Part shown: in pieces, positions 1,147 through 55,407 of the stretch | How the letters are laid out: each line of letters starts with the position of its first letter | How positions within the stretch are numbered: the first letter of the stretch is position 1 | Assembly: GCA_905234605.1 (NCBI GenBank) | Contig: CAJOIE010000002.1 | Span: 124,001-188,000 of the forward strand | Length of the DNA stretch: 64,000 nt | From: an uncultured Bacteroidaceae bacterium | GTDB taxonomy: Bacteria > Bacteroidota > Bacteroidia > Bacteroidales > Bacteroidaceae | Reading direction: 5' to 3' | Program-made: the position numbers and the translations under genes | Notes under the pieces: model-generated | What the model was told of the DNA's origin: nothing | The model's input: only the letters and a program-made list of their open reading frames with translations | Database searches by the model: none

Positions 1147-1248
1147 ACCCTGCACGGTCACGCCAATGACCATGCAGGGTGGTACGAGCACACCATGCAG
1201 GGTATGCGGCATGCAGGGTGCAGGGTGTACAGAAAGAGGGTGCAGGGT
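1147..1248. repeat. Array A1 of the 22-23 bp periodic TGCA repeat, five units
   Basis: Twelve-bp units start at 1147, 1169, 1192, 1215 and 1237 (spacings 22, 23, 23, 22). The first three match ACCNTGCANGGT exactly; the last two are AGGGTGCAGGGT. The DNA between units differs. The array ends three bases before the stop codon of the PAP2-like gene and lies upstream of the BACON lipoprotein promoter. A further related ACCCTATGCA sits at about 1133. Confidence 0.85.
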
Positions 1249-1251
1249 GCC

Positions 1252-1881
1252 TCACGACAGCATGATGCCTGCGAAACCGAGCACGGCACCTGCCACGCTG
1301 CCGGCCACCACCTGCATGAGCGAGTGCTGGCGCAGGAGCATGCGGCTCGTGCCGACCAGGCCGGCAATGAGGATGCACAGCGAGAGCCACCACAGGGGGT
1401 TGAAGCCGAAGATGAGGCTGTAGGCCATCAGCGCGCCCACCACGCCGCCGGCTCCGGCTGCATGCAGGGAAATCTTCCACCACAGGTTGATGAAGGCACA
1501 AGTGGCCTGGATGAGCAGCGAGCCCACGATGATGCCGCGCATGTAGTGGGGCAGGTGCAGGCGCGTGAGCAGGTGCAGCGTGAAAGCGTAGTAGAGGATG
1601 TATACCAGATAGGGGAAGAAGCGGTTCTGCCGCAGACGCAGCAGGTGGCGCTCCATACGGTTGGCACGACGCCAGAAACGCACCGTCAGGCGCGGCAGCA
1701 CTATGGTGCCGAGGGCTACCAGCGAAAGCACAAAGACCTTGAACTGCCACGGCAGCAGCGACAGGTAGGTGAACGCGAACAGTGCCACGAACCCCACCAC
1801 GGGGAAGAACTCGGGGCGGAACACACTCGACAGCCAGCGTGCCAGACGCAGCTGGCTCACCGCAGCACGGCTATGCAACAT
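1252..1881 (-). CDS. PAP2-like integral membrane protein
   Basis: A 209-residue protein with about five or six hydrophobic segments. It resembles the PAP2 (type 2 phosphatidic acid phosphatase-like) membrane family: WWKISLHAAGAGG resembles the K/SGH region, and SRMLLRQHSLMQV fits the R-x5-H motif. The Asp normally four residues after that His is Gln here, as I recall from Bacteroidetes relatives, so phosphatase activity on lipid phosphates is inferred only. The start at 1881 was chosen because a TACATTTG -7 box lies at 1928-1935; an ATG at 1959 would be upstream of the transcription start. The gene is monocistronic by position. It could act on undecaprenyl-PP or lipid A phosphate. Confidence 0.65.
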   Translation of the reverse strand: MLHSRAAVSQLRLARWLSSVFRPEFFPVVGFVALFAFTYLSLLPWQFKVFVLSLVALGTIVLPRLTVRFWRRANRMERHLLRLRQNRFFPYLVYILYYAFTLHLLTRLHLPHYMRGIIVGSLLIQATCAFINLWWKISLHAAGAGGVVGALMAYSLIFGFNPLWWLSLCILIAGLVGTSRMLLRQHSLMQVVAGSVAGAVLGFAGIMLS

Positions 1882-1927
1882 GGTCGACTTCACTACCGGA
1901 ACAGGGTTGCTTTTTGATTTCTCGCGG

Positions 1928-1935
1928 CAAATGTA
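1928..1935 (-). promoter_or_regulatory. -7 box (TACATTTG) for the PAP2-like gene
   Basis: Exact TAnnTTTG on the minus strand, giving a leader of about 40 nt and fixing the start at 1881. The 141 bp from here back to the rpoN stop hold no gene that I can see. Confidence 0.6.
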
Positions 1936-2076
1936 GTCTTTTCCCGCCAACATGCACACTCACTGACAGACAACCGTGCATTTGCCGACGGCAGAGCGTG
2001 CCGGAGACCGACACCACATTAACACCAAGGCCGGCACAGAGTATGCCAAGGCAATGAGCAGACACTGCGGTGTGCC

Positions 2077-3561
2077 CTATGTGCCTCGGCGCAGACTGGC
2101 CTTGGCGATGCCGAGCGAATCGCGGTACTTGGCCACGGTGCGGCGCGCCACGTCGTAGCCCCGCGAGCGCAAGGCGGCGGTGAGTGCGTCGTCGGACAGC
2201 GGGCGGCGCGGATCCTCGCCGTCGACAATCTCCTGCAAGGCTGCCTTGATGGAGCGCACACTGACGTCGGTGCCGTCGAGGCGTGCGGCAGAGGTGAAGA
2301 ACCACTTCAGCGGATAGATGCCCCAGGACGTCTCGACCCATTTGGAATTGCTCACACGCGACACCGTAGACAGGTGCAGGCCCGTGCGGCGCGCCACGTC
2401 GTCGAGTGTCATGGGACGCAGCAGGGTCTCGTCGCCGCTCTCAAAGAAAGGACGCTGCATCGCCACTATGGCGCGCATGGTGGAGAGCAGCGTAAGGCGG
2501 CGCTGCCGCAAGGCCTCGATGAAGGAGCGTGCACGCTCCACGCGCTCACGCAGGTAGACCACGCCGTCGCGCTCCGAGGGTGGCAGCGAGCGCAGGTCGC
2601 GCCCCTCGTAGCTCTGGAGGAAGGCTACGTCGTCGTCGCTGACACGCAACGGCGGCACATGGCCGTTGTTGAGAGTCACGGAGAGAGAGCCGTAAGGGTC
2701 GGTTTCCACAAGGAAGTCGGGCGTAATCTGCTGCAGGTTGCGGCCCACGGCCTCACCCATGCTGCTGCCCGGACGCGGGTTGAGACGGCGCACCTCGCGC
2801 TGCAGCATGTGCACCTGTGCATCCGTCAGCCGCATGGAACGCTGTATGCGGTCCCAGCGCTTGTGCATCAGCGTGTCGAAGTGCTCTGTCAGCAGCTGGC
2901 GCAGCAGCTGCTTCTGCGGCGAGGCAGGGCGCGGACCATGGTCCACCTGCAGCAGGAGGCACTGCTGCAGCGTCTGTGCCCCCACGCCTGCGGGTTCAAA
3001 GTTCTGAAGCACGCCGAGCACACGCTCTACTTCGTCGGTGGAGGTGTCCACGTTGTGATACACCTGCAGCTCGTCGCACAGCTGCTGGAGCGGCACCCGC
3101 AAGAGGCCGTCCTTGTCGAGCATGCCTATGATGTAGCGCATGATTTCCTCCTCGCGGGCCGTAAGATGATAGTAGCCTATCTGCTGCTCCAGCTGGTCGT
3201 AGAAGGAGAGCGTGTCGGAGGCTGTCGCGCCACTGTCGCCACGGGTGACCATGGCCACCGGCAGGGAGTCATCGTCCTGACTGCTGTCGGCCGCGAAAGA
3301 GCTGACATCGCCGAGCTCGTCGGCATCGTAGGCATCGGACTCACCGGCCGCATCGTCGGACGACGAGGCATCGGAGCCATAATCGTCGCCGGAGGATGTG
3401 GCGGCACGCTCCAGCGACACGTTGTCGGCCAGCTCCTGGTCGACACGCTCATGGAGAGCCTCGATGGGAAGCTCCGTGAGATGCGACAGGAGCAACTGCT
3501 GGGGCGAAAGCACCTGCTGCTGGGTCTGCTGCTGTGATGTGGTCTGGGAGAAGGATGGCAC
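2077..3561 (-). CDS. rpoN: RNA polymerase sigma-54 factor
   Basis: Sigma-54 directs RNA polymerase to -24/-12 promoters and needs an AAA+ activator. The N-terminal Gln/Leu-rich region I is clear (QQQTQQQVLSPQQLLL and ELPIEALHERV), followed by an acidic linker of about 80 residues rich in Asp, Ser and Ala, the core-binding domain, and a C-terminal DNA-binding domain with the RpoN box (ARRTVAKYRDSLGI). With the GTG start at 3561 the protein has 494 residues, the usual size. An ATG at 3672 in the same frame would overlap the porin gene by 46 bp and add about 37 residues that do not look like the family, so GTG is preferred with moderate confidence. It is probably the last gene of ychF-lgt-porin-rpoN. 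No sigma-54 activator is seen in the window. Confidence 0.93.
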   Translation of the reverse strand: MPSFSQTTSQQQTQQQVLSPQQLLLSHLTELPIEALHERVDQELADNVSLERAATSSGDDYGSDASSSDDAAGESDAYDADELGDVSSFAADSSQDDDSLPVAMVTRGDSGATASDTLSFYDQLEQQIGYYHLTAREEEIMRYIIGMLDKDGLLRVPLQQLCDELQVYHNVDTSTDEVERVLGVLQNFEPAGVGAQTLQQCLLLQVDHGPRPASPQKQLLRQLLTEHFDTLMHKRWDRIQRSMRLTDAQVHMLQREVRRLNPRPGSSMGEAVGRNLQQITPDFLVETDPYGSLSVTLNNGHVPPLRVSDDDVAFLQSYEGRDLRSLPPSERDGVVYLRERVERARSFIEALRQRRLTLLSTMRAIVAMQRPFFESGDETLLRPMTLDDVARRTGLHLSTVSRVSNSKWVETSWGIYPLKWFFTSAARLDGTDVSVRSIKAALQEIVDGEDPRRPLSDDALTAALRSRGYDVARRTVAKYRDSLGIAKASLRRGT

Positions 3562-3626
3562 GGAGGGATGTGTAAAGACGTGAAATGGGGATGTGACGGG
3601 GCGAGGCGGGGGCTTACATGAGCGGG

Positions 3627-4649
3627 TCAGAAACGCCAGTAGAGCTGCACGTCGGCCGTGTTGTAGTGGCACCCGGAGGTGTTGGTGGCCAGCTTGTTGA
3701 GGTGGCGGCCGTAGTTGAGCTGGAGCGCAAGGTTCTTATGGAAGGTGTGCATGGCACTGATGGCACAGATGCTGTGGGCATTGCTCCACGTGCGGCCCTC
3801 ACGGTAGACATCCCAGCGGGCATAGACACGGGTGTCGCACACCGGCGGCGTGCCCACAGCTACATACCATGCGTCGGCACGCCCTGCCGCGGCATCGACG
3901 GCCCACTCGGCACGCAACAGCCACTGCTCCACATAGTTGACACCCACACTCATGCGGCGACGCTGGAGTGTGGTGCCGTCGGTGTGCACATAGTCGCCAC
4001 GCCAGCCGAAGAGACCCACCTGCAACGGCTTCCACGGGCTGACGGTGAGCCCGCCGATGACATCCTTGCGCGAGTTGCGGTCGGAATGGTTGGTGCCCTG
4101 ACCGTTGTATACTCCGGCCTGATAGTGCAGGAGCGAGTGACTGTCGGTGCCGACGGGCAACACGTCGCCCTGCACCTGAATGCCGAAGTCGCGGCCGTTG
4201 GAGGGGTGCTCGCCCGTGCGGTCGTTGAAACCGGCCAGCCTGTCGGTGAGCTGCGAGTAGGCACCGAAACCTATCAGCCACGGGTGCTGCGGGTTCTCGA
4301 AGGTGAAGCACCGTTTCATCTGCCCTGCCTTGAGGCGGAACGCAGCCCAGCGTTGCCATTCGGCCCACGCATCGAGCACACGCGGACTGGACAGCGTGCT
4401 GCTGTTGCCGTTCACCTGCATCTGCAACTTGAAGGCTACATCGCCAAGACGGCTGTCCACGTAGAGGCGGGCCAGACGAATGCTCATATCACTGTTTCTG
4501 GAGGCACGAGCCTGGTCGGTGGCATTCACCTGCGCAATGACATAGCCGCCGAAGGTGGTGTGCTGCAACACCTCGGAGGCTGACGTCTGGGCGCAGGCCC
4601 TGGCTGTGCCCAGAGCCATCAGGGCTGCTATGAGAGTGGCACGTGTCAT
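3627..4649 (-). CDS. Phosphate-selective porin O/P-like outer membrane protein
   Basis: A 340-residue protein with a signal peptide (TLIAALMALGTARACAQ) and then many alternating amphipathic strands ending in an aromatic residue (VQLYWRF), as expected for an outer-membrane beta-barrel. The run FGGYVIAQVNATDQ, RLARLYVDSRLGDVAFKLQMQ and the later AGQMKRCFTFENP matches the OprO/OprP porin family in Bacteroidetes. It probably forms an anion channel, but the substrate is not shown. The ATG at 4649 overlaps the lgt stop in the common ATGA arrangement, so translation is probably coupled to lgt; an ATG 27 bp earlier lies inside lgt and is less likely. Confidence 0.75.
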   Translation of the reverse strand: MTRATLIAALMALGTARACAQTSASEVLQHTTFGGYVIAQVNATDQARASRNSDMSIRLARLYVDSRLGDVAFKLQMQVNGNSSTLSSPRVLDAWAEWQRWAAFRLKAGQMKRCFTFENPQHPWLIGFGAYSQLTDRLAGFNDRTGEHPSNGRDFGIQVQGDVLPVGTDSHSLLHYQAGVYNGQGTNHSDRNSRKDVIGGLTVSPWKPLQVGLFGWRGDYVHTDGTTLQRRRMSVGVNYVEQWLLRAEWAVDAAAGRADAWYVAVGTPPVCDTRVYARWDVYREGRTWSNAHSICAISAMHTFHKNLALQLNYGRHLNKLATNTSGCHYNTADVQLYWRF

Positions 4650-5479
4650 GCACGGGAGCGACGGGTGCCGCGCCACACGAAGTAGGCACCAAGCACGATG
4701 AAGGGGATGGACAGCAACTGCCCCATGTTGAGAGGCATGGACTGCTCAAAGGCCTCCTGAACCTCCTTGGTGTACTCTACGAAGAAGCGGAATGTGAAGA
4801 TGAGCAGTATGCACAAGCCGAAGAAGAAGCCCGACCCCACACGGTCGGGACGGCGACGGTAGAAGGCCCACCCCACGAAGAAGAAGAGTGCGTAGGCCAG
4901 GGCTTCATAGAGCTGACCCGGATGGCGCGGCAACTGGTCCACCTGCTCGAAGATGAACGCCCATGGCACATCAGTGGGTTTGCCTATAATCTCCGAGTTC
5001 ATCAGGTTGCCCATGCGGATGGCAGCAGCACAGACAGGGGTCACGATGGCTATATTGTCGAGCACCAAGAGCATGGGGAGCTGTGTGCGCCGCGAATAGA
5101 GCCACAAGGCAAACATGAAGCCCAGGGTGCCACCATGGCTGGCAAGACCCGTGTAGCCAGTGAAGTGCCACGAACCGTCGGCACCAAGGCGTGCAGGAAG
5201 TATCATCTCCAGCATGTGCGTACCCGACGAAAGGAAATACTGTGGCTCATAGAAGAGACAGTGACCCAGACGCGCACCTATGAGTATGCCTAAAAAGGAA
5301 TAGATGAAGAGCGGGTCGAACTTCTCCTCGGGGATATGCTGCTCCTTGAACAGGCGCTGCTCAAGGAGGAACACGGAGAGCAGGCCGACACACCAGCACA
5401 GGCTGTACCAGCGGATGCCGAAAGAGCCGATGCTGAATGCAACCACATCGGGGTTCCAGTGTATGAAGAGTGATGTCAT
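4646..5479 (-). CDS. lgt: Phosphatidylglycerol--prolipoprotein diacylglyceryl transferase
   Basis: An inner-membrane enzyme that moves diacylglycerol from phosphatidylglycerol to the lipobox Cys of prolipoproteins, the first step of lipoprotein maturation. At 277 residues it has the usual length and about seven membrane segments. Family motifs are visible: GARLGHCLFYEP, the HGG segment (ASHGGTLGF), RMGNLMNSEIIG, and RHPGQLYEA. It starts 30 bp after the ychF stop and overlaps the porin gene by 4 bp, so the run is probably one transcript. The window itself encodes at least three likely substrates: the BACON lipoprotein, GldK and the thioredoxin lipoprotein at 7929-9038. Confidence 0.97.
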   Translation of the reverse strand: MTSLFIHWNPDVVAFSIGSFGIRWYSLCWCVGLLSVFLLEQRLFKEQHIPEEKFDPLFIYSFLGILIGARLGHCLFYEPQYFLSSGTHMLEMILPARLGADGSWHFTGYTGLASHGGTLGFMFALWLYSRRTQLPMLLVLDNIAIVTPVCAAAIRMGNLMNSEIIGKPTDVPWAFIFEQVDQLPRHPGQLYEALAYALFFFVGWAFYRRRPDRVGSGFFFGLCILLIFTFRFFVEYTKEVQEAFEQSMPLNMGQLLSIPFIVLGAYFVWRGTRRSRA

Positions 5480-5508
5480 GGTCGTGGCTATAGATTATAT
5501 ATATGTGG

Positions 5509-6612
5509 CTACACGTTGAAGCGGAAGTGCATGATGTCGCCGTCCTGCACCACATAGTCCTTGCCCTCGACGCCCATGCGGCCAGCTTCACGCACTGCTG
5601 CTTCGGAGCCATAGGCTATGTAGTCGGCATACTTGATGACTTCGGCACGGATGAAGCCCTTCTCGAAATCGGTGTGTATGACGCCGGCACACTGCGGTGC
5701 CTTCCAGCCCCGGCGGAACGTCCACGCCTTGACCTCCATGGGCCCCGCTGTAATGAATGTCTGGAGGCCCAGCAGGGAATAGATGCTCTTGATGAGGCGG
5801 TCGCAGCCGCTCTCCGTGAGGCCCATGTCCTCCAGAAACATCTGTTTCTCCTCGTAGCTTTCAAGTTCGGCTATATCGGCCTCGGTCTGAGCGGAGATGA
5901 CCAGCAATGCTGCATCTTCGCCCTCAATGGCCCTGCGCACGGCATCCACGTAGGCGTTGCCGTTGGCGGCGGAGGCATCGTCGACGTTGCACACATAGAG
6001 CACAGGCTTGGTGGTGAGAAGGAAGAGGTTGCGGGCTGCTGCCTGCTCGTCGTCGGTCTCGAAGCTCACGGAGCGGGCACTGCGCCCCTCCACGAGAGCA
6101 GCCTTATAGGCTTCAAGCACTGACAGCTCTATCTTGGCCTGCTTGTCGCCGCCCACACGGGCTTGCTTCTCCACCCTGGCCATGCGGGCATCCACTGTCT
6201 CAAGATCCTTGAGCTGTAGTTCCGTGTCGATAATCTCCTTATCGCGCACGGGATCTACCGAGCCGTCGACGTGTACGATGTTGGTGTCGTCGAAACAGCG
6301 GAGCACATGGATGATGGCGTCACACTCGCGTATGTTGGCCAGGAACTGGTTGCCCAGGCCCTCACCCTTGGAGGCTCCTTTCACCAGACCAGCTATGTCG
6401 ACAATGTCGCACGTGGCCGGTACGATGCGCCCTGGGTGCACGAGCTCGGCCAGACGGGTGAGACGCTCGTCGGGCACACTGACTTGCCCCAACTGTGCAT
6501 CGATGGTACAGAACGGGAAATTGGCTGCCTGTGCCTTCGCACTCGACAGACAGTTGAAGAGTGTGGACTTGCCCACATTGGGCAAACCCACTATGCCTGC
6601 TTTCAAAGCCAT
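5509..6612 (-). CDS. ychF: Redox-regulated ATPase YchF (Obg family)
   Basis: A 367-residue P-loop protein of the Obg/YchF family that prefers ATP to GTP and binds ribosomes. The N-terminal G domain shows the P-loop (GLPNVGKSTLFN), the DIAGLVKGAS switch region and the YVCNVDD segment in place of the NKxD motif, which fits the altered nucleotide preference. The C-terminal TGS domain is present (GPMEVKAWTFRRG, FEKGFIRAEV, and YVVQDGDIMHFRFNV at the end). A TATCTTTG -7 box lies 33 bp upstream. It is the first gene of the run toward rpoN. Confidence 0.97.
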   Translation of the reverse strand: MALKAGIVGLPNVGKSTLFNCLSSAKAQAANFPFCTIDAQLGQVSVPDERLTRLAELVHPGRIVPATCDIVDIAGLVKGASKGEGLGNQFLANIRECDAIIHVLRCFDDTNIVHVDGSVDPVRDKEIIDTELQLKDLETVDARMARVEKQARVGGDKQAKIELSVLEAYKAALVEGRSARSVSFETDDEQAAARNLFLLTTKPVLYVCNVDDASAANGNAYVDAVRRAIEGEDAALLVISAQTEADIAELESYEEKQMFLEDMGLTESGCDRLIKSIYSLLGLQTFITAGPMEVKAWTFRRGWKAPQCAGVIHTDFEKGFIRAEVIKYADYIAYGSEAAVREAGRMGVEGKDYVVQDGDIMHFRFNV

Positions 6613-6644
6613 ATACTATCCAAATGGTCAAAAGGTTATTGCCG

Positions 6645-6652
6645 CAAAGATA
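6645..6652 (-). promoter_or_regulatory. -7 box (TATCTTTG) for ychF-lgt-porin-rpoN
   Basis: Exact TAnnTTTG on the minus strand, 33 bp before the ychF start. No other matching box was seen inside the four-gene run. Confidence 0.6.
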
Positions 6653-6684
6653 GCTATTTAGGGTGAACACCGTAGTGGCGACGC

Positions 6685-9038: not shown

Positions 9039-9048
9039 TGCTTTAAGG

Positions 9049-9510: not shown

Positions 9511-9514
9511 GGGT

Positions 9515-13590: not shown

Positions 13591-13648
13591 AACACTTTCG
13601 CGGCTATTCACCACTTTTGCGCCAACAGCATGCACAGAGAAGGCAAAC

Positions 13649-13727
13649 ACCATGCAGGGTGAAGCCACGCACCATGCAGGGTAACGGCAACACACCATGC
13701 AGGGTGTGCCCCGACAGGGTGCAGGGT
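13649..13727. repeat. Array A2 of the 22-23 bp periodic TGCA repeat, four units
   Basis: Units start at 13649, 13671, 13694 and 13716 (spacings 22, 23, 22). The first three are ACCATGCAGGGT, the fourth AGGGTGCAGGGT. The array lies between two divergent promoters: glycosyltransferases (minus strand, -7 box 13583-13590) and tRNA-Leu (plus strand, -7 box 13770-13777). It is about 60 bp from the first and 43 bp from the second. Confidence 0.85.
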
Positions 13728-13769
13728 AAAAAAAGCTGGCCTGCTGCGAGGCTCTTCGGGGATAATAGC

Positions 13770-26135: not shown

Positions 26136-26190
26136 CCGCCATGCCACCGTGCATGCCGTGGCCCGGGCATGCCGCAGCGGCTGGCTGAAC

Positions 26191-26269
26191 ACCCTGCACC
26201 CAGATGCACGGCACCATGCATGGTAAACGCCAGACACCCTGCACCCTCAGCGTGATGAGGATGCAGGGT
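26191..26269. repeat. Array A3 of the 22-23 bp periodic TGCA repeat, four units
   Basis: Units start at 26191, 26213, 26236 and 26258 (spacings 22, 23, 22). The second, ACCATGCATGGT, is a perfect palindrome; units 1 and 3 are ACCCTGCACCC(A/T); unit 4, AGGATGCAGGGT, is inverted. The 317-bp gap 26010-26326 between porP and the flotillin gene holds this array, the divergent promoter boxes and a hairpin; no gene was seen there. Confidence 0.85.
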
Positions 26270-26279
26270 GTCTGGCGTT
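26226..26279. terminator. Long hairpin (18-bp perfect stem) downstream of the flotillin gene
   Basis: Left arm 26226-26243 (AACGCCAGACACCCTGCA) is the exact reverse complement of right arm 26262-26279; five more pairs extend the stem inside after one mismatch, leaving a small loop. It lies 47 bp after the flotillin stop and carries array units 3 and 4 in its arms. There is no clear T-tract on either side, so it may be a processing or protein-binding structure and not a normal terminator. Confidence 0.5.
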
Positions 26280-26326
26280 AGTGTGCAGCCTGCGGCTTGT
26301 GTGCTGGCTGCCTTGTGGCTCATGCC

Positions 26327-34050: not shown

Positions 34051-34077
34051 AAGAGCACCGCCAGACTGCGTCGCGAC

Positions 34078-34155
34078 ACCATGCAGGGTGTTGTCCCGCA
34101 CCATGCACCCACGCTGGCACCACCATGCAGGGTCCACACCGCCACCATGCAGGGT
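34078..34155. repeat. Array A4 of the 22-bp periodic TGCA repeat, four units
   Basis: Units start at 34078, 34100, 34122 and 34144, spaced exactly 22 bp. Three are ACCATGCAGGGT and the second is ACCATGCACCCA. The array lies between the tRNA-Asn terminator and the helicase start at 34190; no TAnnTTTG box was seen between array and helicase. Confidence 0.85.
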
Positions 34156-34189
34156 GTTGCAGCCCCACTAACACATTCATCTCAACCAC

Positions 34190-36073
34190 ATGACATTCAC
34201 CGAATTAGGTCTCATCGAACCACTGCTGCAAGCCGTCACAGAGCTGGGCTTCGAGACACCCATGCCCGTGCAGGCCGCCGTGATACCCCATCAGCTCACC
34301 TCCACCCAGGACCTCGTGGCCCTGGCACAGACCGGCACGGGCAAGACTGCGGCCTACGGCCTGCCCCTGCTGCAGCGTCTGGCCACGACCCTCACCGATG
34401 CCGGCCCCGAAGCCCACGTGGCCACGACAGCCATCGTGCTCTCACCCACACGCGAGCTCTGCCTCCAGATAGCCGACGACCTCGAGGCCTTTGCCCGCCA
34501 CCTGCCGCAGGTGCGCGTGCTGCCCGTGTACGGCGGCACCGACATCATGCCACAGGTGCGCGCCCTGCGCCGCGGAGTGCACATCATAGTGGCTACGCCC
34601 GGACGCCTCATCGACCTCATGCAGCGCGGCGCCGCCAAGCTCGACGCCGTGCACACCGTGGTGCTCGACGAGGCCGACGAGATGCTCTCCATGGGCTTCT
34701 CGGAGAGCATCGACGCCATCCTTGAGGGCGTGCCCGAGGAGCACCGCACGCTGCTCTTCTCGGCCACCATGAGCAAGGAGATAGAGCGCATAGCCACACG
34801 CTATCTGCACGATGCCCGCCAGATTGTAGTGGGGAGCCGCAACGAAGGGGCCGAGAATGTCAACCACGTGTACTACATGGTGCGTGCCTCCGACAAGTAC
34901 CCCGCACTGAAGCGTGTCGTGGACTACTATCCAAAGATCTACGCCATCATCTTCTGCCGCACGCGCATGGAGACGCAGGAGATTGCCGACCACCTCATAC
35001 AGGACGGCTACAACGCCGACGCCCTCCACGGCGACCTCTCGCAGCAACAGCGCGACCTCACCATGCAGCGCTTCCGCCAGCACCGCATACAGCTGCTCGT
35101 GGCCACCGACGTGGCAGCGAGAGGCCTTGATGTGGACGACCTCACACACGTCATCAACTACGGCATGCCCGACGATACCGAGAACTACACCCATCGCAGC
35201 GGCCGCACCGGACGTGCCGGCAAGAAAGGCACCAGCATAGCCATCATACACCAGCGCGAGCGCAACCGCATACGCGACGTGGAGCGCACTATCAAGAAAG
35301 ACTTTGTGCGGGGCACACTGCCCTCGCCCAAGGAGATATGCTCCAAGCAGCTGTGGAAAGTCATCGACGACATAGAGCGCGTGGAGGTGGATGAGCAGGA
35401 GATAGAGGACTTCCTGCCCGAGGTGCGCCGTCGCCTCGAGTGGCTCGACAAGGACGACCTGCTGCGCCGCGTCGTCAGCCGTGAGTTCAGCCGTTTCCTG
35501 CGCTACTACGCCAACGCCCCCGAAATAGAGGAGATAGACCCCGGCACCCGACGCCCGGCCGACAAAGCTAAGAGCCGCAAAGCCGCCGACAAGCGACAGC
35601 CGGGCGATCACGCCCCAGAAGCCGGCTTCACACGCATCTTCATCACGCTGGGCAAGGTGGACGGCTTCTACGCCAGGGAGATAATAGGCCTTGTCAACAA
35701 CCGCTGCGCAGGTCCCAAGGTGGAAATGGGGCGCATCGACCTGCGGCCCACATTCTCATTCTTCGAGGTGCCCGAAGGCGAGGCCAAGCGTGTGCTCGAC
35801 GCGCTGCAGGGCCTCACCGTGAAAGGCCGCCACGTGGGCGTCGACATAGCCGAGGGCACACCCGCCAAGGGCACCACGGCCGAGAAACACGGCGGCCGCA
35901 AGCCACGCGCACAACGCCGCTTCGAGCAGGCACAGGGCGACAAGCCTAAAGCCTATAACAACAAGGGCAAGGCCAACAAAGGAGAGAAGAAAGGCCGCAA
36001 GGACAAACCCGCCAAAGAGAAAGGCGGCAAGGACGACTGGAAGCAGTTCTTCCGTCACGACGACCGCACCTGA
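34190..36073 (+). CDS. DEAD-box RNA helicase with DbpA-type RNA-binding domain
   Basis: A 627-residue ATP-dependent RNA helicase of the DeaD/CsdA type. Q motif (FETPMPVQAAVIP), motif I (AQTGTGKTAAYGLP), DEAD motif (VVLDEADEMLSMG), SAT, and motif VI (YTHRSGRTGRAGKKG) are present. At about 470-560 is a DbpA/CsdA RNA-binding domain (FTRIFITLGKVDGFYAREIIGLVN ... GRHVGVDIAEG is the pattern). The last about 60 residues are rich in Lys, Gly and Asp. Likely roles are ribosome assembly and unwinding of mRNA, often at low temperature. It ends 5 bp before the end of the RibF-CPBP gene on the other strand. Confidence 0.95.
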   Translation: MTFTELGLIEPLLQAVTELGFETPMPVQAAVIPHQLTSTQDLVALAQTGTGKTAAYGLPLLQRLATTLTDAGPEAHVATTAIVLSPTRELCLQIADDLEAFARHLPQVRVLPVYGGTDIMPQVRALRRGVHIIVATPGRLIDLMQRGAAKLDAVHTVVLDEADEMLSMGFSESIDAILEGVPEEHRTLLFSATMSKEIERIATRYLHDARQIVVGSRNEGAENVNHVYYMVRASDKYPALKRVVDYYPKIYAIIFCRTRMETQEIADHLIQDGYNADALHGDLSQQQRDLTMQRFRQHRIQLLVATDVAARGLDVDDLTHVINYGMPDDTENYTHRSGRTGRAGKKGTSIAIIHQRERNRIRDVERTIKKDFVRGTLPSPKEICSKQLWKVIDDIERVEVDEQEIEDFLPEVRRRLEWLDKDDLLRRVVSREFSRFLRYYANAPEIEEIDPGTRRPADKAKSRKAADKRQPGDHAPEAGFTRIFITLGKVDGFYAREIIGLVNNRCAGPKVEMGRIDLRPTFSFFEVPEGEAKRVLDALQGLTVKGRHVGVDIAEGTPAKGTTAEKHGGRKPRAQRRFEQAQGDKPKAYNNKGKANKGEKKGRKDKPAKEKGGKDDWKQFFRHDDRT

Positions 36074-44860: not shown

Positions 44861-45937
44861 TCAGTGGGTGCGACGGACGGCATAGTCGAGGTATGCACCG
44901 AGCGCGGTGGCCACGTCGGGGTTGCGGAGTGTGGCAAGTATGGCGCGTGCCTCGGCGGCGAGCCGCTGCATCTCCTGCTCGGTATAGGCCACACCGCCCT
45001 GCTCACGGGCCATGCGGATGAGAGCCTCGAAATCGGCAGCGGTGGCCTCGCCACGACGCACGCGCAATGCCATCTCGGTGTAGGCCTGTGCGGAGGTCTC
45101 TGCCGACGGGGCTGAAAGGGGGTGCAGGGTGTCGGCGCGGAGGGTGCAGGGTGTCGGCGCGGAGGGTGCAGGGTGCACGGCCGACACGGTGCAGGGTGCC
45201 TCGTGCCGCGTCAGTGGGTAGAGGTATGGCAGTGACAGCTTGCCCTCGCGGAGGTCGTTGGCCGCGGGCTTGCCCACGTCATGCTGTGTGTCGAGGTCGA
45301 AGAGGTCGTCGCGCAGCTGGAAGCACAGCCCCACGAGATGGCCGAGGCGCTCCATGGCCTCCACCTGCCGGTCGTCGGCTCCTCCGAGACGGGCTCCGAG
45401 GCGCGCGCATGTGGCGAAGAGGGCTGCTGTCTTCTTGGCTATGACCTCGTAGTAGGTGTCGATGCTGAAGGTCGTGGCATCGGTGGCATGCAGTTGCAGC
45501 AGCTCGCCGTCGGCCAGCTGCTGCCCCAGCCATGCCGTGCGCTCCACGGCCTCGGCGCAGCCCGTGCGCACTATCTGGCTGAGGGCTGCCGACGTGAGGT
45601 AGTCTCCCACGAGCACTGCGGCCTTGTTGTCGAAGAGTGCGTTGACGGAGGCCTGGCCCCGGCGGCGGTCACTCTCGTCGACCACATCGTCGTGCACGAG
45701 GCTCGCCGTGTGCAGCAGCTCCAGCCCCACGGCGGCATGGATGGCTGCCGGCGTGACTCGGCCTGCCTCGCGTGCGCACAGCAGCAGCAGCGTGGGCCGC
45801 ATAATCTTGCCTGCGCGCTGCCCTATGTGCTGCAAGGCGGCATGGAGCAGGCTGTTGGGCGAGCTGAGGGTGGAGCGGTAGGCCCGGCTGTAGTCCGTGA
45901 GCTCCTGTTCTATGGGACGGCGTATGGTGTCTGTCAT
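44861..45937 (-). CDS. All-trans polyprenyl diphosphate synthase, with a repeat array inserted in the gene
   Basis: A 358-residue prenyl chain-elongating enzyme, probably making the side chain of menaquinone. Both Asp-rich motifs are intact (HDDVVDESDRRRG near 82 and LRDDLFDLDTQ near 213), along with GKIMRPTLLLL and VLVGDYLTSAAL. Residues about 246-273, after KLSLPYLYPL, are encoded by repeat array A5: a stretch rich in Pro, Cys, Thr, His and Ala that is not part of the family and lies in a loop between helices. The four repeat copies are read in three different frames. A -7 box lies 9 bp before the start, so the mRNA is nearly leaderless. The downstream gap to aroQ is 72 bp. Confidence 0.92.
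   Translation of the reverse strand: MTDTIRRPIEQELTDYSRAYRSTLSSPNSLLHAALQHIGQRAGKIMRPTLLLLCAREAGRVTPAAIHAAVGLELLHTASLVHDDVVDESDRRRGQASVNALFDNKAAVLVGDYLTSAALSQIVRTGCAEAVERTAWLGQQLADGELLQLHATDATTFSIDTYYEVIAKKTAALFATCARLGARLGGADDRQVEAMERLGHLVGLCFQLRDDLFDLDTQHDVGKPAANDLREGKLSLPYLYPLTRHEAPCTVSAVHPAPSAPTPCTLRADTLHPLSAPSAETSAQAYTEMALRVRRGEATAADFEALIRMAREQGGVAYTEQEMQRLAAEARAILATLRNPDVATALGAYLDYAVRRTH
45119..45197. repeat. Array A5 of the 22-23 bp periodic TGCA repeat, four units, inside a gene
   Basis: Units start at 45119, 45141, 45163 and 45186 (spacings 22, 22, 23): GGGGTGCAGGGT, two AGGGTGCAGGGT and ACGGTGCAGGGT. The first two intervals are identical. The array is in the coding sequence of the polyprenyl synthase (minus strand). 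Confidence 0.85.
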
Positions 45938-45983: not shown

Positions 45984-45991
45984 CAGTTGAT

Positions 45992-46771: not shown

Positions 46772-46782
46772 GACACCGACAC

Positions 46783-48021: not shown

Positions 48022-48043
48022 AACGGACACACATCACCCCTCA

Positions 48044-49534: not shown

Positions 49535-49582
49535 GAAGGCTATGCAGCTATACTATCTGACAACCGTCACAAGAGCAACATA

Positions 49583-52471
49583 ATGCCTAAGACCAGCCGT
49601 GAGATACAGCGCGACGCCAAGGCCTTCGTGAAGAAATGGCAAGGTCGCGGACAGGAGCGACAGGACGACAAGACCTTCTGGGAAGACCTCCTTGAGGATG
49701 TGTTCGGCGTGCCCAAGGCCCGCGATGAGATAGAGACCCAGAAGCCAGTGCCTTTCGAGGGGACAACCAAGTGGATAGACGTCTACGTGAAGACATCAAA
49801 GGTTGTCATTGAGCAGAAAAGCCTCGGCACCGACCTCGACAATGCCACAGCACAGAGCGGTGGCCGCATGATGACTCCCATGCAGCAGGGCAAACGCTAC
49901 TACGACTGGCTCAACCGCCCGGAGCAGGGACGCTACATCATTGCATGCAACTTCCAGGAGCTACGCATCTTCGACACCTTCCACAAGACAGCCCCAGAGA
50001 CAATCATCACCCTCGAGGAACTGCCGTCGAAATGGGAGAAGCTGGCGTTCCTTGCCCAGCCATGCAACCTCGCAGAGGCAAAGGAAAGGCACGAGGAAAG
50101 CGTGGCCGACACAGCCAGCGGCTATGTGCGCCGCCTGTATAAGGAACTGCTCAAGAGCTTGCCTGCACCTACTGCCGATGAGCTCCACAGCATTAATGCC
50201 TTCTGCGTGCGCGTCGTGTTCTGCCTCTTCGCAGAGGATGCCGGCCTGTTCAGCGACGAGTTCTTCCACTCGTTCCTGCATAAATTCGATGCCGACGAAC
50301 TCCAGAAACGCTTCGACCACCTGTTCGAGGTGCTCGACCTTGAGGAGCGCGACCGTATGGCCTATAAGTATGCGCCCAAGGAGCTTATGGCGTTCCCCTA
50401 CGTGGACGGCGGCCTGTTCCAAAAGGATGAGCACTATGCCACGCCACCCATCACGACGGATGTGCGCGACATCCTGCTCGGTGCGTGGAACATCACCATG
50501 CCTGCCTCCGGCGAGCCCTTCCGCTGGGGTGACATCTCCCCTACCAACTTCGGATGCATCTTTGAGAGCACCGTAGCCTCCGGCCTGCGTGCGTCCGGCG
50601 GTATGCATTACACCACACCGGCCAACATCCACAAAGTCATCGACCCGCTCTTCTTTGATGAGCTGCGAGAGGAACTTGACATCTTGCTGAGAATGCCCAC
50701 GGAGAAGCGACAGGAGCGCAAGGCAGCCGAGGACAGGCTCGAAGCCTTCCGCACCAGACTCTCCTCCCTGCGCTTCTTAGACCCCGCATGTGGCAGCGGC
50801 AACTTCCTGACAGAGACCTATAAGTCACTGCACGAACTGGAACTGGAGGCTATAAAGAAACAGCTGAGCCTCACCTATCAGAAGTACACGAGCAACGTGG
50901 ATCCGTGCAAGGTGCAGATAGGGCAATTCTTCGGCCTTGAGACAGACGACTTCGCCGTCTCAGTGGCCAAGGCATCGCTATGGATAGCCCAGTGCCAGAT
51001 GCTCCAGCGCACAGAGGAGGTGCTGGAGTGCACCCTGACGATGCTGCCCCTGTCCAAGAACGCCAACATACATTGCTGCAACGCGCTAACCACCGACTGG
51101 AACAAAGTGCTACGCCGCAAGGCCGACGCCCCAACATATATAATAGGTAACCCGCCATTCTTGGGCAGCAAGCTGATGAGTCAGCAGCAGCGCGCCGACC
51201 TCAAGGCAGCCATGCCCGACAGCATCGGCGGCAAGCGCGTCTGGGCAGGCCAGGGAGAGCTGGACTTCGTCGCTGCCTGGTATGCCAAGGCAGCCGCCTA
51301 CATGCACGGCAAGCAGAAAGTATCGGCTGCTTTTGTCTCAACCAGTAGCATCGTGCAAGGTGAGCAGGTGGCTCTGCTGTGGCAGCCGCTCATGACACAC
51401 TACAAGCTTCACATCGCTTTTGCCTGGCGCACCTTCCGCTGGTTCAACAAGGCCGACGAGATGGCCCATGTGCACTGCATCGTCGTAGCCTTCTATCTCG
51501 GCAACAGGCGGAAACACATACAGCCTCTGCTTCTCGAAGAAGGCAAGCCGCCAGTGCACGCCTCCAACATCAATGCCTACCTGCTTGATGCCGGAGACTT
51601 CTTCATCAGCAGCCGTAGCACTCCGCTGTGCAACGTGCCGGAGATAGGCATCGGCAACAAGCCTATCGACGATGGCAACTACCTCTTCACGGAAGCAGAG
51701 ATGCGAGCCTTCGTAGCCAAGGAGCCAGCCTCGGAGCCATTCTTCCGGCGTTGGTATGGTGCCTCGGAGTTCATCAGCGGCAAGCCCCGCTATTGCCTTT
51801 GGCTTGGCGACTGTCCTGCTGCTGTGCTCAACACCATGCCACGCTGCAAGCAGCGTGTGCAGGCCGTGATAGCCTATCGCCGACGCAGCCGCAGTGCCCA
51901 GACGCGGGAGCTGGCCAACATGCCCCGACGTTTCCACGTGGAGAATATGCCCAAGTGCAACTATATCATCGTGCCCTGCACATCGTCGGAGAACCGTCGG
52001 TACATCCCCATGGGTTTCATGACGCCAGATGTCATGGCCAGCAATGGTGTCCTCATAGTTCCGGATGCCACGCTCTATCACTTCGGCGTGCTGGAGTCGC
52101 ACCTGCACATGGCATGGATGCGCGTCGTGGGCGGCCGTCTGAAGAGCGACTACCGCTACTCCGCACGCATTGTTTATAACAACTTCCCCTGGCCGGAAGC
52201 TACAGAGGAGCAGAGGCAGTCCATCAGCCATACGGCTCAAGCCATACTGGACGCACGCGCGGCAGAGGCTGACGCCAGTCTGGCCGACCTCTACGACCCA
52301 GCCACCATGCCGCAGGCTCTCGCTCTGGCTCATCGCGCCAACGACCGCGCCGTTGCCGCCCTGTTCGGCATCGGCGAGCATCTCACGGACGAAGAGATTG
52401 CCTGTGAGCTCATGCGCAGGAACAAGGTCTTAAGCCGGAGAAAGCAGCCTGGAAGAAAGCGTCAATGCTGA
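49583..52471 (+). CDS. MmeI-like (Type IIL) restriction-modification enzyme
   Basis: A 962-residue single-chain enzyme with both cutting and methylating parts. The N-terminal nuclease shows Asp66 and Glu77-Gln-Lys79 (WIDVYVK and IEQKSLG), the D-x10-E-x-K arrangement of MmeI relatives. A helical spacer follows (about 150-330). The adenine methyltransferase has motif I DPACGSGNFL near 399 and motif IV NPPF near 523. The remaining region (about 640-960) is the target-recognition and C-terminal part (PRRFHVENMPKCNYIIVPC, SARIVYNNFPWPE). Such enzymes methylate one strand and cut about 20 bp away. No separate restriction or specificity subunit is adjacent. It may be a defence gene gained by transfer. 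Confidence 0.9.
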   Translation: MPKTSREIQRDAKAFVKKWQGRGQERQDDKTFWEDLLEDVFGVPKARDEIETQKPVPFEGTTKWIDVYVKTSKVVIEQKSLGTDLDNATAQSGGRMMTPMQQGKRYYDWLNRPEQGRYIIACNFQELRIFDTFHKTAPETIITLEELPSKWEKLAFLAQPCNLAEAKERHEESVADTASGYVRRLYKELLKSLPAPTADELHSINAFCVRVVFCLFAEDAGLFSDEFFHSFLHKFDADELQKRFDHLFEVLDLEERDRMAYKYAPKELMAFPYVDGGLFQKDEHYATPPITTDVRDILLGAWNITMPASGEPFRWGDISPTNFGCIFESTVASGLRASGGMHYTTPANIHKVIDPLFFDELREELDILLRMPTEKRQERKAAEDRLEAFRTRLSSLRFLDPACGSGNFLTETYKSLHELELEAIKKQLSLTYQKYTSNVDPCKVQIGQFFGLETDDFAVSVAKASLWIAQCQMLQRTEEVLECTLTMLPLSKNANIHCCNALTTDWNKVLRRKADAPTYIIGNPPFLGSKLMSQQQRADLKAAMPDSIGGKRVWAGQGELDFVAAWYAKAAAYMHGKQKVSAAFVSTSSIVQGEQVALLWQPLMTHYKLHIAFAWRTFRWFNKADEMAHVHCIVVAFYLGNRRKHIQPLLLEEGKPPVHASNINAYLLDAGDFFISSRSTPLCNVPEIGIGNKPIDDGNYLFTEAEMRAFVAKEPASEPFFRRWYGASEFISGKPRYCLWLGDCPAAVLNTMPRCKQRVQAVIAYRRRSRSAQTRELANMPRRFHVENMPKCNYIIVPCTSSENRRYIPMGFMTPDVMASNGVLIVPDATLYHFGVLESHLHMAWMRVVGGRLKSDYRYSARIVYNNFPWPEATEEQRQSISHTAQAILDARAAEADASLADLYDPATMPQALALAHRANDRAVAALFGIGEHLTDEEIACELMRRNKVLSRRKQPGRKRQC

Positions 52472-52505
52472 CACATGCATACACCAACACTAACACCTAC
52501 ATAAC

Positions 52506-54767
52506 ATGAAAGCAACTATCTCAAGCAAACTCTGCCTGCTTGCGCTGACAGCCATGGTGGCTGTCGCAGGCGGCACCGCACGTGCCGACGAGGGCATGTG
52601 GCTGCTGGGACGCATGGACCAGCGCACCATGGACGTGGCACGCTCCTTAGGCCTGGAGCTCACGGAGCAGGAACTCTACAACGACGAGGGCACGGCTCTC
52701 AATGCCTGCGTGGTGGACTTCGGCGACTACTGCTCGGGGGTCATCGTCTCGCCCGACGGCCTGCTGTTCACCAACCACCACTGCGGCTTCAGCTCTATCC
52801 AGCAGCTGTCGACGCCCGACGACGACATCCTTGCCAATGGCTTTGTGGCCCGTTCAAGAGAGGAGGAGCGTCCTGTCGACGGCCTCTTCGTGAAGATATG
52901 GCTGCGCTGTGAGGACGTGACGGCCCAGGTGCTGGCAGAGCTCGACAGCGTATATGCCAACCCTGAGCTGGGGCGCAAGGCAGGCAAGCAGCGGCAGGCT
53001 GTGCTCTACAACGACTATGTCGGCAGCATCATGGACAAGATAGCCATGCGTGCGCAGCGGCGTGCCAACGAGGAGCGCAAGGAAGGCATAGTGTGTGAAG
53101 TGAAAGCCTTCGAAGGCGGTCGCTCATATCTGCTCAACTACTACCGCCAGTACGACGACATTCGCCTCGTCTTCACCGTGCCCCAGTCGCTGGGCAAGTT
53201 CGGGGGCGACACCGACAACTGGATGTGGCCCCGCCAGACGGCCGACTTCAGTGTGTTCCGCATCTACGCCGACTCCTTAGGCCTGCCTGCCGACTACAGT
53301 GCCGACAACGTGCCGCTGCGCCCGCGCCGCTATGCACGCATCAGCCTCGAGGGCTACACGCAGGGCAGCTACTGCATGACGATAGGCTACCCTGGCTCCA
53401 CAAGCCGCTATCTCTCGAGCTACGGTGTGGAGGAGCGTGTGGATGTGGCCAACATACCCCGCATCCGCGTGCGTGGCGTGAAGCAGGATGTATGGCGCCG
53501 CTGGATGACTGCCGACCGCACCGTGGGCATCAAGTATGCCTCCAAGTATGCCTCCTCGTCCAACTACTGGAAGAACTCGCAGGGCATGAACGAGGCTGTG
53601 GCGCGCCTCGGCATCGTGGCCGAGAAGGAGGCTCGCGAGCAGGAGCTGCGCCGCTGGTTTGCCGCCACACCAGCCTTGCGTGCACGCTTCGCCCAGATGC
53701 TGCCGCAGCTGAAGAAGGACTACCGCACACGCCGTGATGCGCGCTACGCACAAGGCTTCGTCAGCGAAGCCCTCTACGGCACAGAGCTCATCACCTTCGG
53801 CCGCCTGGCAGCACGCGTGGCCGACATGCATCCCGACCGCCGCAGAGGCATCACGGAATATGTACGCGACCTCTACAAGGACTACGACCCGCGTGTCGAC
53901 GAGGACGTGATGGCCGCCTTGCTTGAGGAATACGCCCGCGAGGTGCCGTCGCGCTACCTGCCCCGCTTCTACAAAGACATCCGCCGTCTCTTCAAGGGCG
54001 ACTATAAAGCCTTTGCCCATGAGATATTCGAAGGCACACGCCTCACCTCCTTTGAGGGGTGGCAGACACTCGTCGACGCCGAGGTCAGTGCCGAGGGCAC
54101 CTACGACGATGCCCTCGAGCAGAAGCTGGCCGACGAGGAGGCCTACCGCGACCACGTGGGTTCCGACCCTGCCGTTATACTCGCCGAGGAAGTCGGTGCC
54201 ATGGTGGCGGCCGTGATACAGCCAGTGCTGGAGCGCACAGGAGCCAGCATATCGTGGAACGAGGCACTGCTCACACAGGCCGTGATGGAGAAGGAGATGG
54301 ACCAGCCCCACTACTCCGACGCCAACTTCACGCAGAGGATGAGCATAGGCATCGTGTCGGACTACACCAACTCGGGCACGCACCACGACTACATCACCAC
54401 GCTGCCCTCGCTGCTCGACAAGATAGACCACGGGGCCGACAACCCCGACTACGTCGTCGAGGAGGCCGTGGCCGCCCTGCTCCGCACGGCCTCCTACGGC
54501 CGCTATGCCGACCAGCGCACGGGCCAGCTGCCGCTATGCTTCCTCACCACCAACGACATCACCGGAGGCAACTCGGGCTCACCCATGTTCAACGGCCGTG
54601 GAGAGCTCATAGGCCTGGCCTTCGACGGCAACTGGGATGCCCTGAGCTCCGACATCTCGTTCGACGCAAGCCTCACGCGCTGCATCGGCGTGGACATACG
54701 CTTCGTGCTGTGGCTCATGGACCGCTGGGGCCACGCCGACCGTCTCATCAGCGAGCTGCTGCCATGA
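52506..54767 (+). CDS. dpp7: S46 family dipeptidyl peptidase, DPP7 type
   Basis: A 753-residue exported peptidase that removes dipeptides from oligopeptides for amino-acid use. A signal peptide (KLCLLALTAMVAVAGGTARA) precedes the catalytic His in FTNHHCGF (about 91), Asp in GGDTDNWMWPR (about 235) and Ser in GGNSGSPMFNG (about 691). In the S1 pocket the residue after GLAFD is Gly, as in DPP7 (prefers hydrophobic residues), where DPP11 has Arg for acidic residues. It lies 34 bp after the MmeI-like gene and overlaps the Nudix gene by 4 bp. Confidence 0.93.
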   Translation: MKATISSKLCLLALTAMVAVAGGTARADEGMWLLGRMDQRTMDVARSLGLELTEQELYNDEGTALNACVVDFGDYCSGVIVSPDGLLFTNHHCGFSSIQQLSTPDDDILANGFVARSREEERPVDGLFVKIWLRCEDVTAQVLAELDSVYANPELGRKAGKQRQAVLYNDYVGSIMDKIAMRAQRRANEERKEGIVCEVKAFEGGRSYLLNYYRQYDDIRLVFTVPQSLGKFGGDTDNWMWPRQTADFSVFRIYADSLGLPADYSADNVPLRPRRYARISLEGYTQGSYCMTIGYPGSTSRYLSSYGVEERVDVANIPRIRVRGVKQDVWRRWMTADRTVGIKYASKYASSSNYWKNSQGMNEAVARLGIVAEKEAREQELRRWFAATPALRARFAQMLPQLKKDYRTRRDARYAQGFVSEALYGTELITFGRLAARVADMHPDRRRGITEYVRDLYKDYDPRVDEDVMAALLEEYAREVPSRYLPRFYKDIRRLFKGDYKAFAHEIFEGTRLTSFEGWQTLVDAEVSAEGTYDDALEQKLADEEAYRDHVGSDPAVILAEEVGAMVAAVIQPVLERTGASISWNEALLTQAVMEKEMDQPHYSDANFTQRMSIGIVSDYTNSGTHHDYITTLPSLLDKIDHGADNPDYVVEEAVAALLRTASYGRYADQRTGQLPLCFLTTNDITGGNSGSPMFNGRGELIGLAFDGNWDALSSDISFDASLTRCIGVDIRFVLWLMDRWGHADRLISELLP

Positions 54768-55321
54768 CACACCCGCTCGACATCTTCGCATTCTGCCCGC
54801 ACTGCGGGGCCGCCGCCTTCGTGCCCCACGGCGGCAAGGCCAAGCACTGTGAGGCCTGCGGCTTCACCTACTACCTCAACCCCTCGGCGGCAACCGTGGC
54901 ACTGATAGAGCGCACCGCAGGCGCAGATGCCCACACGGAGTGGCTCTGCGTGCGCCGCGCCAAGGAGCCGGCACGCGGCACCCTCGACCTGCCCGGCGGC
55001 TTCTCCGACATGGACGAGACCAGCGAGCAAGGCGTCTGCCGTGAGGTGAGAGAAGAGACGGGGCTGGAGGTGGAGCGCACAGAGTTCCTCTTCTCCTTGC
55101 CCAACCGCTACGAATACTCAGGCATGGTGATACCCACCATCGACATGTTCTACCGCTGCCACGTGGCCGACACCACACAGGCATGCGCCGCCGACGATGC
55201 CGCCGAGCTGCTGTGGCTCCGCCCTGAGGACATCGACCCTGCCGCCTTCGGCCTGACAAGCATACGCCACGGTGTGACACGCCTGCTGGCAGAGAGAAAC
55301 AGCCGGCCTGCGGAACTATGA
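54764..55321 (+). CDS. Nudix hydrolase with N-terminal zinc ribbon (NudC-like)
   Basis: A 185-residue pyrophosphohydrolase. It has a zinc ribbon (FCPHCG ... CEACGF) in the first 32 residues and the complete Nudix box G-x5-E-x7-REVREETG ([12 protein letters not shown] then [10 protein letters not shown]). The build is like NudC proteins that act on NADH and remove NAD caps from RNA, but shorter, so the substrate is uncertain. Start and DPP7 stop overlap as ATGA. The repeat array A6 starts 7 bp after its stop. Confidence 0.9.
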
Positions 55322-55327
55322 AGAAAG

Positions 55328-55407
55328 GGGGTGCAGGGTGACAGCCCATCACCCTGCACCCACACGCCCATCACCCTGCACCCTCCTGACAGAGCACCCT
55401 GCACGGT
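55328..55407. repeat. Array A6 of the 22-23 bp periodic TGCA repeat, four units
   Basis: Units start at 55328, 55351, 55373 and 55396 (spacings 23, 22, 23). The first is GGGGTGCAGGGT; the other three face the other way (ACCCTGCACCCA, ACCCTGCACCCT, ACCCTGCACGGT). The array is in the 214-bp gap between the Nudix gene and metK, 53 bp upstream of the metK -7 box. Confidence 0.85.

Follow-up and report, generated by a model that had tools for sequence, protein, structure and literature searches.

What is the role of a short palindromic DNA motif that recurs along a chromosome in small groups of rigid spacing? The question is raised by a 64,000-nucleotide stretch of an uncultured Bacteroidaceae bacterium (the window; C2:124001-188000 of genome G000, an assembly of 2.36 Mb in 26 contigs that is 87% complete), in which a first-pass annotation had reported six arrays of a 12-bp core, ACCNTGCANGGT, repeated at a pitch of 22 or 23 bp. 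A scan of the window recovered all six arrays where they had been placed and reproduced the count of 11 exact core units, every one of which lies within an array; with at most one mismatch to the core there were 16 matches, where 3.17 (standard deviation, sd, 1.90) were expected. The pitch was reproduced both in the window and in the 674 kb of G000 scanned for arrays. The reading that we favor, at a probability of about 0.5, is that the arrays are cooperative sites of a clade-specific dimeric protein that organizes or insulates the chromosome. Judged from sequence comparison, they are selected, sequence-specific sites that are probably protein-bound.

Across G000, exact cores numbered 239 compared with 6 for a reversed-pattern control, and exact core pairs at the 22/23 pitch numbered 83 compared with 0. 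With a profile derived from contig 1, 33 arrays were found on that contig (400,000 of its 407,152 bases scanned) and 26 on contig 2 (all 274,340 bases), or 59 arrays in 674 kb. At the same threshold no array was found in one Markov resample or in the reversed sequence of either contig, and at a lower threshold the Markov resample and the reversed sequence of contig 2 gave one array each. The commonest array size was four units (32 of 59 arrays), and the 207 steps between units comprised 126 of 22 bp, 75 of 23 bp and 6 of 44-46 bp in which one unit is missing, so that the genome-wide test proposed in the first-pass annotation, a peak at 22-23 bp, was strongly positive (201/207 steps). Extrapolation from these 59 arrays would give ~200 per genome. 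Called genes were overlapped by 7 of the 59 arrays, the remainder being extragenic.

The core had been described as nearly palindromic but is looser than a palindrome: of 266 units (674 kb), 102 had CC-GG ends, 98 had other bases on at least one side, and the rest ended in GG-GG (35), CC-CC (29) or GG-CC (2). At least one half-site was kept in nearly every unit. Neighboring units were more alike in direct orientation than random pairs (9.25 vs 8.45, sd 0.13), while their complementarity was not above that of random pairs (8.21 vs 8.37, sd 0.12). The direct likeness and the lack of excess complementarity fit DNA sites that are extended locally by duplication and speak against RNA hairpins. Some arrays were near-perfect tandem copies, such as that at C1:295871 with identical spacers; between arrays, a raw count gave 199 of 10,522 spacer pairs with at least 8 identical bases.

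Spacer bases had been said to differ for the most part, and between close species the spacers do diverge freely; their centers, however, 11 bp from the core, are enriched in GGC/GCC, a weaker feature than those above. In G000 the frequency was 0.40 vs 0.22 in shuffled spacers for 22-bp steps and 0.62 vs 0.28 for 23-bp steps. Enrichment was also found in relatives that carry arrays of other cores, namely G011 (0.77 vs 0.22), G023 (0.64 vs 0.26) and G026 (7/7 vs 0.07); it was less clear in the second array family of G011/G023 (0.31 vs 0.05), in G077 (0.30 vs 0.09) and in G016 (0.25 vs 0.04), and was not seen in G014 (0 vs 0.03). Alternation of GC and AT every 11 bp is a preference of wrapped DNA, and the GGC/GCC at 11 bp from the core therefore suggests that the DNA at the arrays may be wrapped. 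A pitch of 22.5 bp lies about 1.5 bp beyond two turns of relaxed B-DNA. The earlier statement that all units face one side is thus not established, since only wrapping or underwinding of the DNA would keep units at this pitch in register.

Retention and divergence of arrays were followed between G011 and G023, close relatives in a sister clade, in which the flanks of the mapped arrays are 87-98% identical. For 14 of the 28 G011 arrays both flanks could be placed in a G023 contig, and all 14 had a G023 counterpart of the same family and unit number. In the reverse direction both flanks were placed for 15 of 26 G023 arrays, 14 of which met a same-family array; one G023 array (33959), with its flanks in rearranged places, was uninformative. 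Over 13 GGTTAACC-type array pairs (48 units), the inner eight core bases had changed at 3 of 384 places (0.8%), compared with 19 of 288 in the outer core, 60 of 488 in the spacers (12.3%) and 319 of 2,890 in the flanks (11.0%). On two contigs of G011/G023, steps were exactly 22 bp in 110 of 110 GGTTAACC-type and 35 of 35 CTGCAG-type cases. Since the 8-bp core is kept while the spacer between cores drifts, we read both the cores and the spacer length as being under selection, a pattern that gene conversion would hardly explain. The idea of a dimeric, sequence-specific DNA-binding protein, already put forward in the first-pass annotation, is supported by the fixed pitch, the half-site rule and the purifying selection on the core in the sister clade.

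Arrays were also evenly spaced along the chromosome. The mean gap between them was 12.5 kb on contig 1 and 10.7 kb on contig 2 (overall about one array per 11 kb), with minimum gaps of 6,445 and 5,875 bp and coefficients of variation (CV) of 0.48 and 0.30, respectively. Under uniform placement, none of 20,000 draws reached either observed minimum or either CV. When the same number of arrays was drawn from the called intergenic regions (185 on contig 1 and 104 on contig 2), the median minimum gaps were 767 and 796 bp. Minima as large as those observed occurred in none of 20,000 draws, and a CV as low as the real one occurred in fractions of 0.0001 and 0, respectively. The largest gap on contig 1 is taken up by a succession of large genes, most of them in one direction, which by eye resemble SusC/SusD. 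In G077, which represents a second clade with another core, the gaps between seven arrays were 13.9, 11.4, 18.6, 11.6, 11.7 and 11.8 kb (CV 0.20, P 0.0008). Even spacing is strong in two clades and weaker in a third, and a chromosome-organization site, at first listed as an alternative, gains from it.

The arrays had been thought to lie generally upstream of promoters. This was not borne out, and the enriched class is convergent gene pairs: in G000, 15 of 44 convergent pairs carried an array compared with 37 of 406 other pairs (odds ratio 5.2, p = 2.3e-5), and in G011 8 of 15 did so compared with 19 of 161 (odds ratio 8.5, p 3.5e-4). Among divergent G000 pairs, 13 of 46 carried an array. No gene shared by the neighborhoods of eight strong arrays from five genomes was apparent by eye. 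As a separate observation, a gene for a small lipoprotein (MTKKFFQGLFAFFVAAVLSV...) is present twice in G011:C18 (L233:14862-16204, L234:1430-2507), both times between two arrays ~1.1-1.3 kb apart, which constitutes a segmental duplication that includes the arrays.

Relatives share the layout and carry other cores. In a comparison set with one genome per species, the paired TGCA core at the 22/23 pitch was absent from all 60 relatives, of which 36 belong to the genus and 24 to other families within the order. Other species did, however, carry their own arrays in the vicinity of rhlE and of the prenyl-synthetase gene. Three-unit chains at step 22/23 occurred in the sampled stretches of all ten other genus genomes, the sole such chain in G074 being a simple TTAGGG-like repeat. 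Four-unit chains were clearest in G011, with 15 at step 22 and none at 14-20 or 23-33; counts were 3 vs 0 in G077 and 1 vs 0 in G027, 4 in G016 and 2 in G066, both of which also gave a single chance chain at 14, and 2 in G003, which gave three counts at 14-16. Repeats with different periods were present as well in G014, G015, G028 and G074. Among six further genomes, represented by short samples, arrays were clear in G026 and G075 and weak in G081 and G004; in G030 and G020 the de novo chain method detected none. Independently of the 22/23 step, chains of period 17-18 stood above background in G000:C1:1-400000 (three-unit, 7 and 6; four-unit, 6 and 5).

The cores were TTCAACACGTTGAA-like in G077, AACCAGTGACTGGTT in G016, GAGACGGCCGTCTC and GTGACACCGGTGTCAC in G014, CGCCGCATGCGGCG in G026, CTGGCGCCAG in G027 and CCCTTAAGGG in G015, and in G011 and G023 two cores, AAAGGTTAACCTTT and ACTTCTCTAGAGAAGT, stand side by side. 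Of 87 de novo arrays, 30 were clearly palindromic under a strict 70%-consensus score; several more fall into the same families but have a variable position, and some, among them those of G003, were not clearly palindromic. Over 121 genus genomes, paired GGTTAACC was counted 105 times in G011, 112 in G023, 17 in G100, once in G099 and not at all in the other 117 (control 0), and paired CAACRYGTTG 255 times in G077, 157 in G079, 132 in G009, once each in G089 and G143 and not at all in the other 116 (control, 1 each in G092 and G120). Five of these nine core-bearing genomes thus hold 105-255 paired copies. Among 80 loci grouped by name, the 46 named as Bacteroidaceae, Prevotellaceae or one of their genera peaked at steps 21/22 and 22/23 (17 and 14 vs 0-6 elsewhere), a peak that comes from 14 loci, some of them simple repeats; the other 34 were without a peak (3 and 0). 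The layout is genus-wide and probably wider.

Within the window, the six arrays and the two genes that array 1 adjoins and array 5 enters are as follows.

1145..1250, no strand: array 1, five units starting at 1147, 1169, 1192, 1215 and 1237 (steps 22, 23, 23, 22)
1252-1959, minus strand: called PAP2-family gene (Pfam), one base from array 1
13625..13729, no strand: array 2, five units, the first degenerate, starting at 13627, 13649, 13671, 13694 and 13716 (steps 22, 22, 23, 22)
26144..26293, no strand: array 3, six units starting at 26146, 26191, 26213, 26236, 26258 and 26280 (steps 45, 22, 23, 22, 22)
34076..34157, no strand: array 4, four units starting at 34078, 34100, 34122 and 34144 (steps 22, 22, 22)
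44861..45937, minus strand: polyprenyl synthetase gene, 358 aa, PF00348, with array 5 in its coding sequence
45117..45199, no strand: array 5, four units starting at 45119, 45141, 45163 and 45186 (steps 22, 22, 23)
55326..55431, no strand: array 6, five units starting at 55328, 55351, 55373, 55396 and 55418 (steps 23, 22, 23, 22)

Array 5 makes up most of an in-frame insertion of ~36 residues in the polyprenyl synthetase. Matches to this protein were found in 57 other genomes, with 29 loci returned, and the insertion was missing from all nine genus homologues that were aligned from these loci. As an in-frame insertion without counterpart in homologues, array 5 indicates that arrays can arrive as inserted DNA. 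For one G077 array a possible loss in G079 or G009 was considered; homology stops ~130 bp short of the array and no empty site is readable. Array 3 contains a perfect palindrome, ACCATGCATGGT, at 26213, and lacks one unit between units 1 and 2 (the 45-bp step). Array 2 is flanked by a glycosyltransferase gene (minus strand) and tRNA-Leu, array 4 by a pair of tRNA-Asn genes and by the gene for a DEAD-box helicase (34190-36073, plus strand), and array 6 by a NUDIX gene (ending at 55321) and metK. Pfam confirmed the PorP/SprF (type IX secretion system), glycosyltransferase and MetK genes named earlier beside arrays, and at the gathering threshold Rfam returned nothing but three tRNAs.

Candidates for the protein that reads the arrays were sought among three families. 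An Lrp/AsnC reader was rejected, the recognition helix SRAAIHQRVQ being identical in G000, G003, G014, G027, G028, G066 and G077 despite their differing cores, in an alignment that leaves out the G011 and G023 proteins and has some rows (G003a, G016b) in the wrong frame. A lone TetR protein, seen as a single TetR_N match per genome in five genomes, was rejected likewise: GRRTLYTYF is present in all five despite differing cores, preceded by K in four genomes and by L in G000. XRE/HTH_3 proteins gave 35 matches in five genomes, 26 of them with loci; four of these loci are cut by contig ends, and of the four G079_C7 was read. One XRE group of 147-164 aa (helix-turn-helix, variable linker and strongly conserved C-terminal end EIRVFYDDGTFETF) occurs in G000, G011, G023 and G077 (L349:1486-1977, L363:1231-1680, L346:1486-1935, L348:1489-1929); the G079 match that was read (G079_C7) is not an orthologue, in a genome that is 62% complete. 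By analogy to the 434 repressor we presume which residues contact DNA; each of the three clades has its own set of them, and G011 and G023 share theirs, but these two are close relatives in any case. In an alignment of 124 sequences (these four and, of 3,715 homologues with E <= 1e-10, the best 120), eight helix positions showed 20 combinations, one of which accounted for 64 sequences; helix residues vary from subgroup to subgroup, but the helix is not hypervariable. Within 1.5 kb of the XRE gene, G000 and G077 had no array of the known core, and G011 and G023 had none with GGTTAACC; no NCBIfam model reached its cut-off for the group, and no further copy was found in 371 loci (4.2 Mb). We regard this protein as a weak lead and its being the reader as improbable.

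We propose that an array is a compound site, mostly of four dyads 22-23 bp apart, for a cell-encoded dimeric protein, whose dimers would lie side by side over ~85-100 bp, perhaps with the DNA wrapped, and form a stable knot. Knots at about one per 10 kb that prefer convergent gene junctions would serve as chromosome-organizing or insulating elements; candidate roles are barriers to supercoils or transcription, or anchor points for a nucleoid protein. Arrays would reach new places by insertion, and selection on the cores would then keep them. In each clade another core would have taken over, presumably with a different or altered protein as its reader, and the two core families in G011 and G023 may represent a stage of such a replacement.

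Several points weigh against this proposal. No binding protein was identified among the Lrp/AsnC, TetR and XRE candidates examined, the profile scan covered 29% of G000, and the selection test comes from the G011/G023 sister clade and not from the species of the window. The gene pairs derive from our own simple gene calls, and in G000 37 of the 52 array-bearing pairs are not convergent. A reversed control of G077 gave one array, so one of its seven could be chance. As they stand, the G011 arrays are not significantly evenly spaced (CV 1.10, P 0.84) and those of G023 are weakly so (CV 0.66, P 0.019). A 56-kb gap in G011 holds a 50.6-kb insert relative to G023, with called genes that are prophage-like by eye, and no arrays were found in this region (G011:C18:185056-241027); without the insert P is 0.004, a value obtained post hoc.

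A bolder version of the proposal, which we hold tentatively and judge unlikely, is a chromosome-wide lattice in which a fast-changing family of dimers would read four-dyad arrays about every 10 kb, favoring convergent seams, with the pitch set by assembly and the core a replaceable clade password, and would thereby both fold the chromosome and mark it as self. Two observations that also count for the main proposal were noted for self-marking, namely that the prophage-like insert is without arrays and that viral contigs are nearly without the two paired cores (1 and 0 stretches, the pattern of the first search being narrower than the core). Separately, one viral contig of IMG/VR (IMGVR_UViG_3300022204_000006, 41 kb; L302:8180-8300) has a tandem array of its own with ~22-bp units, whose palindromes, TTAAACCATGCATGGTTTAA and TTAAACCGTCCATGGTTTAA, are perhaps repressor operators.

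Were the arrays operators of a global transcription regulator, standing at the genes it controls and numerous because the regulon is large, then their operator-like character as cooperative dyad arrays, their presence in divergent G000 pairs and the metK, tRNA and helicase genes that adjoin them in the window would be accounted for. Convergent pairs, however, with no promoter between their genes, are the most enriched, a regulon is not expected to be evenly spaced, and a simultaneous change of core at more than 100 operators is hard to imagine; we consider this reading improbable. The convergent bias in G000 and G011 speaks for a roadblock or terminator at gene ends, in which protein-bound arrays would halt RNA polymerase chiefly between convergent genes, and by eye a strong inverted pair followed by a T-run ends the arrays at C1:176555, 233343 and 399393. 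Yet 29 of 44 convergent G000 pairs have no array, most array-bearing pairs are not convergent, neighboring units are no more complementary than random pairs, and this role alone gives no even 10-kb spacing, which makes it distinctly improbable.

Insertion of array 5 in a gene, together with the number, mainly extragenic position and clade specificity of the arrays and the resemblance along the array among copies in G023 and in G079/G009, is what would be expected of a mobile repeat that only copies itself, without host function, in the manner of repetitive extragenic palindromic sequences (REPs) or miniature inverted-repeat transposable elements (MITEs). Cores, however, are 14-fold more resistant to change than spacers and every mappable array is retained; Y1/RAYT transposase (PF01797) gave 0 matches in G000, an 87% complete genome, and none in 7 of 10 genomes, with weak matches in G003, G016 and G066; no flanking inverted repeat was noticed, though no systematic search was made; and even spacing would demand insertion immunity. 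We therefore think a purely selfish repeat quite unlikely. Local slippage, with palindromes favored as replication hairpins, would make the arrays minisatellites, in keeping with the near-perfect tandem copies at C1:295871 and the direct likeness of neighboring units, but slippage cannot place the same core at scores of separate sites while leaving it absent from other species of the genus, nor is conservation limited to the core what it would leave, and this explanation seems very improbable.

Like the first-pass annotation, which knew of no published family with this pattern, our literature searches found no description of it. In manner the arrays would fit dispersed nucleoid-protein sites, such as those of Noc, SlmA and MatP, or bacterial interspersed mosaic elements (BIMEs), but they fail the RAYT test and are not classed with these. 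Noc, SlmA and MatP sites are 12-16-bp palindromes across the chromosome, dimer-bound and mainly single, and the specificity of Noc and ParB can shift; here, in contrast, the sites form four-site arrays of fixed pitch, and within the superfamily of SlmA (TetR) the lone member keeps the same recognition helix across clades with differing cores. ArgR, HipB and Lrp/AsnC tandem operators consist of palindromic sites about two turns apart that are bound cooperatively and serve limited promoter sets, and Lrp-type octamers of four dimers wrap DNA.

REPs and BIMEs resemble the arrays in being palindromic, numerous, extragenic, species-specific and grouped in regularly spaced clusters, and the copy number and largely extragenic placement reported above are of that kind. 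Roles in chromosome organization and termination have been proposed for them, and BIME-2 binds DNA gyrase (PMC2817692). REPs alternate in orientation, whereas the arrays here are direct, have a 22-23-bp pitch and are evenly spaced on the chromosome, and the GTAG/CGTC tag of REPs given in PMC3733652 was not seen in our 142-unit profile. BrickBuilt of Porphyromonas gingivalis, a minisatellite/MITE with 23-nt repeats at 19 places in one genome, is likewise a Bacteroidales element that is intergenic and species-restricted; as portrayed in PMC4596501, it is always intergenic, its contiguous 23-nt copies (up to 22.8) abut with no spacer between them, and it has a leader and tail with IS5-like terminal repeats. 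The present arrays differ in having mostly four units, a selected core, a freely changing spacer (12.3% divergence compared with 0.8% in inner cores), ~10 times more places and one copy in a gene; G023 matches of four-array queries span ~80-90 bp, the array itself. Clustered regularly interspaced short palindromic repeats (CRISPR) share the alternation of short repeats with non-identical spacers, but their repeats measure 24-48 bp (PMC3733652), and a 12-bp core with a 10-11-bp spacer is far too short for repeats of that size. The arrays stand at 59 places in 674 kb, with spacer centers partly conserved. Palindromic Bacteroidetes elements in a candidate-RNA survey are mostly predicted terminators (PMC8040213).

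The combination of a fixed two-turn pitch, a strongly selected clade-specific dyad core and even spacing at ~10 kb was not found in the described repeat classes. If one protein reads the arrays, it would be a hitherto unrecognized chromosome-organizing factor in a broad group of Bacteroidales, and the replacement of cores between clades would, if true, amount to a natural experiment in the joint evolution of a DNA-binding protein and the hundred-odd sites that it reads.

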